This document shows positions 2,916-6,515 of a stretch of DNA of 41,185 nucleotides, in pieces. The notes beneath the pieces are model-generated. The model saw only the letters and a list, made by a program, of their open reading frames with translations, ran no database searches and had not been told where the DNA came from. The position numbers were made by a program, and so were the translations under genes. The stretch is from an uncultured Desulfomicrobium sp. Its GTDB lineage: Bacteria; Desulfobacterota; Desulfovibrionia; Desulfovibrionales; Desulfomicrobiaceae. The stretch lies in assembly GCA_937872685.1 (NCBI GenBank), contig CALMTS010000104.1, positions 1 to 41,185 of the forward strand, given 5' to 3'. Within the stretch, counting starts at the first letter, position 1, and each line of letters starts with the position of its first letter.

Positions 2916-3830
2916 TCACTCGAGCACTACGCGCAGGTCGATGCTGATCATGTCATAGACGATGTGGTAGCTCAGATATTTGAAGAACCGTGCCGACCCG
3001 TAGAGCACGCCCCATTTGGTGCGGTCCAGGTCGAGGTTGGCCATCAGCGCGATCCTGCCTTCGGCCAGGGGGCGCAGGTTCGCGTCGAAGGACACCTCGC
3101 GCGCAATGCCCCGCAGCGTCATCACGGCTGTGACGCGGTAGTTGGGCAGGGTAGCGGGGGCCTCGGGTATGGGCGCCATGTCCGTGATCTCCACGGTGCA
3201 GGTCGGGAAGTGGGAGACGAAGAAGAAGTCGTCGGACTTCAGGTGGTCTTCCAGTACCCCCTGCAGTTCGGTCCCGGCCAGGTCCGTGTTGGCGATGGAG
3301 TTCATGGACAGGGTGAAGAGCCCTTTGAGCCCCTCGCCTTCCCGGATCAGCGCGCCATCCTTGATGTCCAGCGTCCCGGTATGCCTGCTGTTGTAGTTCC
3401 GTCCGGTCCAGAGGATGCCCGATTCGGCAGGCACGGCGACATAGCGCGCATCCCGCAGTTGCAGGACCGGATGGGCGGGCTCCCATTCGTCCGCCAGCAC
3501 TCCTTCCAGAGGGTTGCCTTCGGCTTTCCAGGCGGGCAGCCCGCCATGCAGGACTGCCAGGTTGGAGTATCCGGCCCGGTGGAGTTTCCCGGCCGCGGTC
3601 ACGGCGTCCAGGGAGCCCTCGCCCGCGCCGTAGATGATGATCGGGGCGCTCTTGTCCGGGACGATGGCGGCCATGCGGTCGAGGAAGGCCACTTCGTAGA
3701 CGCAGGCGTTGAGCGCTCCGGGGATGTGGCGGGCCTCGAAGTGTTCGGGGGGCAGGACGTCCAGGATCAGCTGGCGGCCGGATTCCCGGGCGGCTCTGAC
3801 ATCTGCGGTGGATGCGGGCATGCTCGACAT
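2916..3830 (-). CDS. Rhodanese-like plus YceI-like fusion protein, rhodanese Cys absent
   Basis: 304 residues. Residues about 5-105 are a rhodanese fold (LILDVLPPEHFEARHIPGA, then LAVLHGGLPAWKAEG). The active-site loop reads IIIYGAGEGSLDA, so Gly68 sits where the persulfide-forming Cys belongs. Residues about 130-304 resemble YceI lipocalin-like domains, including WTGRNYNSRHTGTL, DDFFFVSHFPTCTVEI and the terminal strand pattern. YceI proteins are usually exported and bind isoprenoids, but no signal peptide is seen here, so this one is probably cytoplasmic. The chosen ATG has GGAG 9 nt upstream; an in-frame Met at 3821 is an alternative. It lies 119 nt downstream of the PAS gene and converges on the TrpF-like gene with only 16 nt between the stops. 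Likely non-catalytic; role unknown. Confidence 0.8.
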   Translation of the reverse strand: MSSMPASTADVRAARESGRQLILDVLPPEHFEARHIPGALNACVYEVAFLDRMAAIVPDKSAPIIIYGAGEGSLDAVTAAGKLHRAGYSNLAVLHGGLPAWKAEGNPLEGVLADEWEPAHPVLQLRDARYVAVPAESGILWTGRNYNSRHTGTLDIKDGALIREGEGLKGLFTLSMNSIANTDLAGTELQGVLEDHLKSDDFFFVSHFPTCTVEITDMAPIPEAPATLPNYRVTAVMTLRGIAREVSFDANLRPLAEGRIALMANLDLDRTKWGVLYGSARFFKYLSYHIVYDMISIDLRVVLE

Positions 3831-3949
3831 GGTGTGCTCCGTTGCAAGACGGGAGAGGCCCGTCCGGTTGGTGGTGTGCTCTCGGCGTGGACCATGACTT
3901 CTTGCGGCAGCGGATTCCCGGCCCCGCGCCGTGCTCAACATGTGCGCGC

Positions 3950-5365
3950 CTATTTCAGCTCGAAAAGAAAGCCGCCCGTGCCGTCCGGAACCGGGACCGG
4001 CGGTTCCGGGGCATGGTAGATTCTGCGGATCTTCTCACCCAGGACCCGGAGGTCTTTGAAGGATTGCTCGGCCTCGCGGACCTGGTCCATGAGGCGGGAA
4101 AGAAGTCGCTCCCTGCTGGCCTGGTCCCGGGCGGACTTGAGGGCGTCGATGTAGTCGAGCATGAGCCCAAGCTGCATGAGCTGGACCTGAGCGATGTTGT
4201 TCAGCCGGTCGGAAAGCCCGCCCATGGTGCGCCGGTAGGTTTCGAGTTCTGTCTGCGCGATGACCGCGCGCATGTCATGGATGATGACCTGGTAGCTTTC
4301 CGGGCGCCCGGAGTTGCGGTTCCTGCGGCATCCGGCCGTGACGGCCACATCCACGACCTCGCCCCCGAGGGTTTTGAGCCTGGCCGGATGACCGGTGATG
4401 CTTCCCGACTCGTCGATCTGGGACATGATCGTCTCGCGGGTCCCCTGGTCGAAGTGGGCGGACACGTTGCCGGTCAGCGCCTCTTCGCGGCTCGGGTACC
4501 CGAACAGGCTGACGGCGGCCTGGTTGATGTCCGTGAAGTCTCCCTTGGGGGAAGCCACGAAGATGGGGTCGGTCGAATTCTCGAAGATGCGGCGGTACTT
4601 CTGTTCATTGATGCGCAGCCTCTCCTCGTCGTTCTTGCGGTCGGTGATGTCCTTGATGAAATGGTAGACCTGCTGGACCCGGCCGAGACCGTGCTCCTTG
4701 AACACGACTTCGCCCTCGTCCCGCACCCAGCGTATGTCCCCGTTGGCGTGCACGATGCGGTATTCGATGCGGTCGAACTCCTTGTCGACCAGCCCGGCGT
4801 AGAATGCGTGGACCCTGGCCGTGTCATCCGGGAAGACGAGGTCGATGGGGTGGAAGATGTTCTGGACGAACTGTTCCGCGGGCAGGCCGTAAAGCCCTTC
4901 GGTGGCGCTGTTGGCCGATTCGATGCGCGAATGTTCGCGGTCGAAGGCCATGATGACCTCGGGGATGGAGTCCAGGATGCGCTTGAGCTTGTTCTCGGCC
5001 CGGGTTCGCTGGGTGATGTCTGTCAGGGAGCAGAGCAGGGCGGGGTCGCCGTCGAGAAAGACCCGCTGGGCCTGCATGATCACGAAGGATTCCGCGCCGT
5101 CGATGTCGCGAAGCGTGAATTCGAGCTTTCCGACACTGCACGCGGACCCGTCGGCAGGGATGGAGTTCAGGTATCTGGCAACGCGACGGTGGTGTTTGGG
5201 GATGACGAAATCGAAAAAGGACAGGCCCGGCAGGCTGTCCTGCCGGGTTTTGCACAATCCCGCGAAACAGAGGTTGGCGTGACTGATCGTGCCTTCCCGC
5301 AGGATGACCGTGCCCTGGCTGATGGCGTCCAGAATCCGGAAATGATTCGTGTTCAGAAGCTGCAT
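3950..5365 (-). CDS. Three-PAS signalling protein with a degenerate histidine-kinase H-box and no ATPase domain
   Basis: 471 residues, soluble. Three PAS-type modules occupy about 5-120, 125-245 and 252-368; the second and third carry typical ends such as HFIKDITDRKNDEERL (PAC motif). The following helices at about 370-450 resemble the dimerisation domain of PAS histidine kinases of the GG-[IL]-A-H-D-[FL]-N-N class, but the motif reads GGLSDRLNN (382-390), with Asp where the phosphorylated His should be. No HATPase domain follows, and the protein ends at FLFELK. It may be a sensor or adaptor that dimerises with another kinase, or a decayed kinase. The ATG at 5365 has no convincing ribosome site. 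The open frame extends upstream, but that part is the shadow of neighbouring genes. Confidence 0.8.
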   Translation of the reverse strand: MQLLNTNHFRILDAISQGTVILREGTISHANLCFAGLCKTRQDSLPGLSFFDFVIPKHHRRVARYLNSIPADGSACSVGKLEFTLRDIDGAESFVIMQAQRVFLDGDPALLCSLTDITQRTRAENKLKRILDSIPEVIMAFDREHSRIESANSATEGLYGLPAEQFVQNIFHPIDLVFPDDTARVHAFYAGLVDKEFDRIEYRIVHANGDIRWVRDEGEVVFKEHGLGRVQQVYHFIKDITDRKNDEERLRINEQKYRRIFENSTDPIFVASPKGDFTDINQAAVSLFGYPSREEALTGNVSAHFDQGTRETIMSQIDESGSITGHPARLKTLGGEVVDVAVTAGCRRNRNSGRPESYQVIIHDMRAVIAQTELETYRRTMGGLSDRLNNIAQVQLMQLGLMLDYIDALKSARDQASRERLLSRLMDQVREAEQSFKDLRVLGEKIRRIYHAPEPPVPVPDGTGGFLFELK

Positions 5366-5406
5366 GTGTGTTTTGCGCTGTGGCCGGGGACAGGGCCCCG
5401 GCTGGT

Positions 5407-6048
5407 TTACTTTGCGTTGATGGTGATTGTGTCCAGCGTGCTCAGTGTCGTCCTGGCACGCGTGCCCGGAGCGTTCAGGAGGTGCCAGGCCGTGTACTGC
5501 TCGGCGTAGAGGGTGCCCGCCGACATTCCGTCCACGGGCACGATGACCGAGAGCCCCCGCATGGAAGCCCCTGTGGCCGTGTGCAGCACCGCGCCCTCGG
5601 CCGTGGTGCCGGTGACGATGACCGTATGGACCCCGAGTTTTTCCAGGATCGCCCCCAGCTCGGTATTGAAAAATTTGTCCACGGATGACTGAACGATCGG
5701 TTCTCCGGGCAGGGGTCGGGCCGGAGGCAGAATGGTGTCGGGCGTGCCCTTGCTGGTCAGGCTGTGCACCACGGGCATGCCCGCTGCCCTGGCCTTGGCC
5801 AGGAACGCTCCGATGCGGGGGGCGGATTCCACGCAGCGGGGGCGGGATGTCGTGTTGCAGGTCCTCTCCTCGATGTCGAGGACGAGCAGGGCCGTGTCCT
5901 TGGCGTCGACAGTAACGGGTTTGAGTTCCACGGGGGCCGGCGGCTGGACCTCGGCCCACTGGTCGACGATGGTTTTCGCCCCGGCGGGCGGGGTATGGAC
6001 AAGAAACAGCAATGCGGCGGCAATGAAGACGAAACGTGACGGGTTCAT
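5407..6048 (-). CDS. Exported isochorismatase-fold hydrolase, Cys replaced by Ala
   Basis: 213 residues with a clear Sec signal peptide (hydrophobic 6-18, probable cleavage after AGA near residue 24), so a periplasmic protein. The rest is an isochorismatase/nicotinamidase fold: Asp58 in LVLDIEE, Lys125 in SSVDKFFNTEL, and the nucleophile segment GTTAEGAVLHTA, where Ala153 replaces the usual Cys. Known family fact: true isochorismatases such as PhzD and EntB also lack this Cys and use Asp and Lys, so catalysis is not excluded; amidase activity is. Two Cys (C64, C72) might form a disulfide. The ATG overlaps the stop of the thioesterase gene (ATGA), implying coupled translation. Substrate unknown. 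Confidence 0.85.
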   Translation of the reverse strand: MNPSRFVFIAAALLFLVHTPPAGAKTIVDQWAEVQPPAPVELKPVTVDAKDTALLVLDIEERTCNTTSRPRCVESAPRIGAFLAKARAAGMPVVHSLTSKGTPDTILPPARPLPGEPIVQSSVDKFFNTELGAILEKLGVHTVIVTGTTAEGAVLHTATGASMRGLSVIVPVDGMSAGTLYAEQYTAWHLLNAPGTRARTTLSTLDTITINAK

Positions 6049-6515
6049 GAGACCTCCTCGCGGACCGGGGGGTGTGCCGGAGCCCGGATGGCATCCGGCG
6101 CTTTTGCCCCTGCCTTGCGTATATTATACACGCCCCGGCCTTCGGCAATGACGACTTCGGGATTTGCGGCCGAAAAAATCTGCACCGTGGCATTGCCCAC
6201 CCGGTTGCCCAGCAGCTTGACCTCGCCGATGGCGATGAGGTCCGCCGGATCGGCAGGCCGCAGGTAGTCCACGCGCATGTCGATGGTCGCCACCCGGTCC
6301 CGGACCGAACATGCCGCCCACACGGCAGAGCCTCCGCAGGTGTCCACAAGCATGGAGATCAGCCCCCCGTGCAGGGCCGGGCGGCGCGGGTCGCCGATGA
6401 ACTCGGGGCGGTAGGGCATGCGCAGGCGCGCGTAGCCCGGGCGAATTTCTTCCACCACAAGCCCGAGGAAATGGTCGAAGGGAATCTCGTGTTCGATGAC
6501 GTGGCGAATGTCCAT
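6045..6515 (-). CDS. PaaI-type hotdog-fold thioesterase
   Basis: 156 residues. The hotdog core includes FIGDPRRPALHGGLISMLVD with the conserved H-G-G followed by a long helix, then MRVDYLRPADPADLIAIGEV, the standard strand pattern of PaaI/YdiI acyl-CoA thioesterases. The expected role is hydrolysis of an acyl-CoA, often aromatic or hydroxylated, in the cytoplasm. GAGGA 5 nt upstream supports the start. It is first gene of the minus-strand group that continues with the isochorismatase-fold, PAS and rhodanese-YceI genes, and diverges from minC across about 180 nt. The acyl group cannot be predicted. Confidence 0.88.
   Translation of the reverse strand: MDIRHVIEHEIPFDHFLGLVVEEIRPGYARLRMPYRPEFIGDPRRPALHGGLISMLVDTCGGSAVWAACSVRDRVATIDMRVDYLRPADPADLIAIGEVKLLGNRVGNATVQIFSAANPEVVIAEGRGVYNIRKAGAKAPDAIRAPAHPPVREEVS

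Follow-up and report, generated by a model that had tools for sequence, protein, structure and literature searches.

Do neighbouring genes, three of whose products lack a residue expected for catalysis or phosphorylation, form one functional system? This question is raised by a cluster of four genes in an uncultured Desulfomicrobium sp. The cluster is located on a contig of 41,185 bases, the whole of which we refer to as the window (contig C104 of G000, a metagenome-assembled genome of 506 contigs). The genes encode a thioesterase, an isochorismatase-fold protein (IsoC), a protein with three PAS domains (PAS protein) and a rhodanese-YceI fusion (Rho-YceI). All are located on the minus strand, as described in an original prediction made from this DNA, and are separated by gaps of −4, 41 and 119 nucleotides (nt). 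The prediction had also noted Ala153 and Gly68 in place of Cys in IsoC and Rho-YceI, and an Asp (residue 386) in place of the kinase His in the PAS protein. These substitutions are real and go beyond chance, being invariant in 50 of 50, 13 of 13 and 34 of 34 sequences respectively.

The further proposal, that the four genes make up one sensing or binding system, could not be upheld. Rho-YceI is present at only four of 11 readable loci, and IsoC and Rho-YceI are unlinked outside the genus. We favour, with a probability of about 0.72, a genus-level Desulfomicrobium cluster with a variable tail, in which each member is a ‘non-catalytic’ variant of a known fold that was fixed separately. None of the results presented here ties the four genes together functionally.

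Gene order within and beyond the genus

The locus was readable in 11 Desulfomicrobium genomes, that of the window included. The window has the full series thioesterase-IsoC-PAS, and so have eight relatives (G001, G002, G003, G004, G006, G012, G013 and G014), and the gaps within this core do not exceed 41 nt in the Desulfomicrobium relatives. At the G007 locus, the contig end falls inside IsoC. G011 has the thioesterase and IsoC without PAS, and PAS orthologues without IsoC occur in G005, G008 and G015. The first two genes, translationally coupled according to the original prediction, do overlap here, but the overlap is restricted to G000, G003 and G014; in the other genomes a gap of 16–46 nt is found instead.

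The region beyond the PAS gene is variable. Rho-YceI is found there in G000, G003, G007 and G014 and is absent from the remaining seven readable genomes. Six relatives carry a gene for an Old Yellow Enzyme-like (OYE-like) flavoprotein of 355 residues, named from its sequence. It is located between PAS and Rho-YceI in G014 and G007, and is found without Rho-YceI in G002, G004, G006 and G013. In the window's genome and in G003 no such gene was detected. The core is a Desulfomicrobium gene cluster, probably transcribed as a single unit, with a tail that differs by species: OYE-like flavoprotein, Rho-YceI, both or neither.

Outside the genus, the two families are unlinked. Among the 297 genomes of a class-wide sample of Desulfovibrionia (53 genera), IsoC was found in 30, from 11 genera, and Rho-YceI in 52, from 18 genera and nearly always at full length. 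Rho-YceI ranges across the order Desulfovibrionales. For IsoC, strong matches were obtained in 22 of 395 genomes from across the phylum; a plasmid search yielded one Caballeronia record, with an identical Ala signature, and a phage search gave no match. In genomes outside Desulfomicrobium which have both genes, these are far apart or on separate contigs (for example, the two positions are 0.21 and 2.31 Mb for G056, 1.48 and 1.12 Mb for G073, and 3.07 and 3.49 Mb for G094). No recurrent neighbour of IsoC was detected among 18 loci of other genera.

As IsoC is spread phylum-wide and Rho-YceI order-wide, and the two are unlinked outside the genus, both substitutions predate the neighbourhood. ‘Independent loss in three neighbours’, as the original prediction put it, is therefore the wrong description. 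The substitutions in IsoC and Rho-YceI were fixed long before the genes met, families already substituted having become neighbours in one genus, and the PAS protein represents a separate, genus-level family. The original prediction is thus supported in part: the substitutions are conserved in orthologues, whereas one joint four-gene system finds no support.

One system or separate families

A single four-gene system would span periplasm and cytoplasm: IsoC would bind a ligand outside, the PAS protein and Rho-YceI would relay the signal inside, and the thioesterase would act on the coenzyme A (CoA) form of the ligand. The suggestion that this ligand is aromatic or isoprenoid is a guess from family names. 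The common strand, the short gaps and the overlap of thioesterase and IsoC in three genomes would fit such a system, and the three odd proteins are all conserved and under purifying selection. It is nevertheless very unlikely, considering that Rho-YceI is absent from most readable Desulfomicrobium loci and located apart elsewhere, and that IsoC is present without the other members across order and phylum. Moreover, the cluster contains no transmembrane relay gene, so that a periplasmic IsoC lacks a visible route to the cytosolic proteins. Such a system would have been a sensing device of a new kind, but most of the argument for it falls away in the comparison of genomes. Restricting the system to the core, with thioesterase, IsoC and PAS (and the OYE-like enzyme where present) acting in one Desulfomicrobium pathway and Rho-YceI as a passenger, accounts for the order kept in eight complete and one contig-truncated relatives with their narrow spacing, and for the OYE-like gene past PAS in six. 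This we still regard as unlikely, since PAS is found without IsoC in three genomes, thioesterase and IsoC without PAS in one, and IsoC has no constant neighbours outside the genus. Synteny within the genus may be plain inheritance, as the min and PRAI-like genes at the flanks show it to the same degree.

The absence of a key residue from each of three neighbours could also be taken as a sign of ongoing gene decay. However, the reading frames are open in the orthologues and the substitutions are invariant. Pairwise ratios of non-synonymous to synonymous substitution rates (dN/dS) are 0.05–0.23 over all four genes, inside the range shown by genes next to the cluster (PRAI-like, MinC and MinD). 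These data exclude decay, which is refuted and retains practically no probability; the original prediction was right in calling it improbable. Several points weigh against our own reading of separately fixed variants in a genus-level cluster. Most of the Desulfomicrobium genomes holding IsoC have retained the core order, so that its three genes may be functionally linked. In four genomes, Rho-YceI has become part of the cluster and remained in it. In addition, cotranscription of the core is our inference, and the protein roles suggested below are read from folds.

A more general caution follows from this locus: where the substitutions are fixed family by family, neighbours without catalytic residues are no evidence that these residues were lost jointly. 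The interest of the cluster rests mainly on IsoC, whose family extends across the phylum and has a rewired active site. The features are listed in Table 1.

Table 1. Features of the cluster and of related loci. Positions without prefix refer to the window; aa, amino acids.
Feature	Position	Strand	Remark
Hotdog-fold thioesterase (4HBT / TIGR00369)	6045–6515	minus	156 aa; first gene of cluster
IsoC, isochorismatase-fold	5407–6048	minus	213 aa; 4-nt overlap with thioesterase
IsoC Asp58 codon	5875–5877	minus	catalytic Asp, kept
IsoC Cys64/Cys72 region	5833–5859	minus	near-invariant TCNxxxRPRC
IsoC Lys125 codon	5674–5676	minus	family-specific Lys, five residues past canonical Lys column
IsoC Ala153 codon	5590–5592	minus	nucleophilic Cys position
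Three-PAS protein	3950–5365	minus	471 aa; C-terminal two-helix DHp-like hairpin (predicted), without ATPase domain
PAS Asp386 codon	4208–4210	minus	GGLSDRLNN; His position of paralogue's GGMCHYLNT
Rho-YceI, rhodanese-YceI fusion	2916–3830	minus	304 aa; variable tail gene of cluster
Rhodanese Gly68 codon	3627–3629	minus	catalytic Cys position
OYE-like gene	L056:2988–4055	minus	also past PAS in L059, L060, L061, L062
OYE-like gene	L057:1974–3041	plus	
PAS paralogue L168	L168:1471–3213 (contig C132 of window's genome)	minus	three PAS, His-bearing DHp-like region

The active site of IsoC

IsoC belongs to the isochorismatase fold superfamily, scoring 81.2 bits against PF00857 (Pfam cut-off 27). Its AlphaFold2 model has a predicted local distance difference test score (pLDDT) of 92.5 and resembles many solved superfamily members with VIA Z scores of 20.9–22.9. 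For 3irv, the Z score is 22.9 (168 aligned residues, root-mean-square deviation 2.3).

Hydrolases of this superfamily use an Asp-Lys-Cys triad. The active site of IsoC was compared with four references, three Cys-bearing relatives and EntB of Escherichia coli. The query for the N-terminal domain of EntB agreed with PDB entry 2fq1 along its full length of 182 residues. The triad Asp is retained: Asp58 is Asp in every family member having a residue there. The nucleophilic Cys of cysteine hydrolases is missing, residue 153 being Ala in all 50 family members read; the column has Cys in the three Cys-bearing relatives and Gly in EntB. The canonical triad Lys (column 120), present in all four references, is found in only three of 49 family members and replaced by Gln120 here, a loss which the original prediction had overlooked. 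By contrast, all 49 family members have Lys at position 125, where the Cys hydrolases and EntB have Ala or Gly. At the column of the Gln that binds substrate in EntB and PhzD (residue roles from PMC12210187), IsoC has Thr98, and the family has mostly Thr or Ser.

The missing Cys alone does not mean a dead enzyme, since the true isochorismatases EntB, VibB and PhzD also lack it, which weakens the premise of the original prediction. For PhzD and VibB, it has been described that a Gly holds the substrate through its main-chain amide, with Asp and Lys close by (PMC12210187); from our alignment, we take this Gly as the equivalent of the Cys column. Engineered Cys mutants of the isochorismatase fold have been solved ligand-bound (4l08 with C149A and 6xj4 with C162S, according to the entry titles), so a site without Cys can bind. 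We considered IsoC as an isochorismatase sensu stricto, as EntB and PhzD are also devoid of Cys, and ruled this out because the Lys and Gln columns differ (Gln120 and Thr98).

IsoC thus shares with EntB, VibB and PhzD the fold (VIA Z 20.9–21.9 for 2fq1, 3tb4, 3tg2 and 1nf9), a nucleophile position without Cys and the catalytic Asp; the Ala-His of the YAHIG motif is common to these isochorismatases and most IsoC relatives. It differs from them in the unconserved canonical Lys column, the new Lys125, the mostly Thr or Ser residues at the Gln column, Ala in place of Gly, and an N-terminus which, judged by eye, is signal-peptide-like. N-carbamoylsarcosine amidase, BiuH, maleamate amidase and nicotinamidase likewise have the same fold (Z up to 22.9) and the Asp, but IsoC departs from these cysteine hydrolases by its invariant Ala for Cys and the unconserved Lys column. 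An IsoC homologue is named ‘isochorismatase family protein’ in a public record; as judged from its residues, the active site does not support the activity which this name implies. In the literature searched, an isochorismatase pseudoenzyme was not found.

Two Cys residues, Cys64 and Cys72, are invariant save in L180 and L181, both of which have neither. Their joint absence suggests that they form a disulfide, which is probable from this pattern. As read from its fold, IsoC would most likely be a periplasmic small-molecule binder or a hydrolase with a rebuilt site comprising Asp58 and the new Lys125. One might go further and see in IsoC an undescribed, phylum-wide exported family which lost Cys and Lys and rebuilt its pocket (invariant Asp, displaced Lys, disulfide) as a periplasmic binder or for new hydrolytic chemistry, and which in Desulfomicrobium works with a kinase-inactive cytoplasmic PAS sensor. 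Taken as a whole, this proposal is speculative and we consider it doubtful. IsoC nevertheless offers a lead: conserved in sulfate reducers and relatives and apparently exported, the family has a defined, unusual residue pattern, and its activity or ligand is directly testable.

The PAS protein, Rho-YceI and the thioesterase

The PAS protein contains three PAS stretches above the Pfam cut-off. In its C-terminus neither a HisKA nor a HATPase domain was matched at E ≤ 10 (Pfam), so that both marks of a histidine kinase are missing. Long helices are predicted at residues 366–411 and 415–451, and the protein stops about 20 residues beyond this hairpin. The model as a whole is of low confidence (pLDDT 56.7), with local values of 71–89 over approximately residues 391–440. 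The protein resembles PAS sensor histidine kinases in its tandem PAS domains and in a predicted helical hairpin at the location of the DHp domain, and is unlike them in the absence of a HisKA match and an ATPase domain and in having Asp for His.

The assignment of Asp386 to the His position, made in the original prediction as ‘Asp for the kinase His’ without ATPase domain, holds for the missing ATPase domain and for the Asp in all 13 orthologues. With HisKA unmatched, it is based on the predicted two-helix hairpin and on an alignment with L168, a His-bearing paralogue from the same genome (31% identity over 410 columns, matching layout). L168 also lacks an ATPase domain. As it has the His nonetheless, this small family was probably without a kinase domain first, and Asp386 would be a later step in one branch. 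L168 is a possible partner or phosphotransfer protein. From its fold, the PAS protein would most likely be a dimeric cytoplasmic sensor or scaffold unable to autophosphorylate. Its C-terminal region was found only in Desulfomicrobium. The C-terminal tail, PEPPxPVxDGxGGxLFDL (3953–4012), is invariant at key positions in the 13 Desulfomicrobium orthologues and belongs to no known family.

Both parts of Rho-YceI are recognized by Pfam: a rhodanese domain at residues 8–104 (55.3 bits, above cut-off) and a YceI domain at residues 130–302 (62.1 bits, cut-off 23.7). Active rhodaneses have a Cys in the loop after strand 3; residue 68 of Rho-YceI is Gly in each of the 34 homologues. Both profiles being matched and the Cys missing, Rho-YceI falls among the inactive rhodaneses fused to an unrelated domain. 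The loop Cys is kept by 11 of the 13 rhodanese domains in the window's genome. Judged from these sequences, Gly68 is unusual within the genome and fixed within the Rho-YceI family. A second rhodanese domain of this genome without the Cys is located at G000:C126:7044–7301 (L215) and has the sequence VFGRSVSRRYD. Cys43 of Rho-YceI (3702–3704, minus strand), just past the HIPGA motif, is invariant in all 34 homologues.

A recognized class (class 4) comprises rhodanese domains that lack the Cys and are joined to other domains; they are regarded as interaction modules (PMC10135228). Rho-YceI agrees with this class in the absent loop Cys and the fusion to an unrelated domain, but its fusion partner, a YceI domain, is different. 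A description of a rhodanese-YceI fusion was not found in the literature searched. No signal peptide is visible, and the protein is therefore probably cytoplasmic. By its folds, the YceI part of Rho-YceI would most likely be a lipid-type binding domain located in the cytoplasm, and the rhodanese part a non-catalytic domain for protein contacts.

Of 21 Rho-YceI loci, 13 have a PAS-domain gene nearby; in G003 this is the cluster's own PAS gene. We discounted this as a functional link: the genomes are PAS-rich and most of the loci come from one genus, so that it is probably synteny. One such locus is in G225, a genome from a different family of the same order, where Rho-YceI and the gene of a large PAS hybrid histidine kinase converge (L138:6309–9816).

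With regard to its surroundings, the cluster is preceded by min genes on the opposite strand and followed by a convergent PRAI-like gene (both named by inspecting translations). Scans for promoters and terminators returned no signal that clearly exceeded shuffled sequences. The thioesterase scores above the cut-offs of the general hotdog models 4HBT (41.4 bits, Pfam cut-off 20.6) and TIGR00369 (66.5 bits, cut-off 36.6). With 28.8 bits it stays far below the cut-off of 118.9 for TIGR02286, the PaaI equivalog (hydroxyphenylacetyl-CoA thioesterase). A thioesterase had thus been identified correctly, but the name PaaI was too specific. The protein has 87–94% identity to most of its Desulfomicrobium relatives, with a dN/dS of 0.06–0.09.

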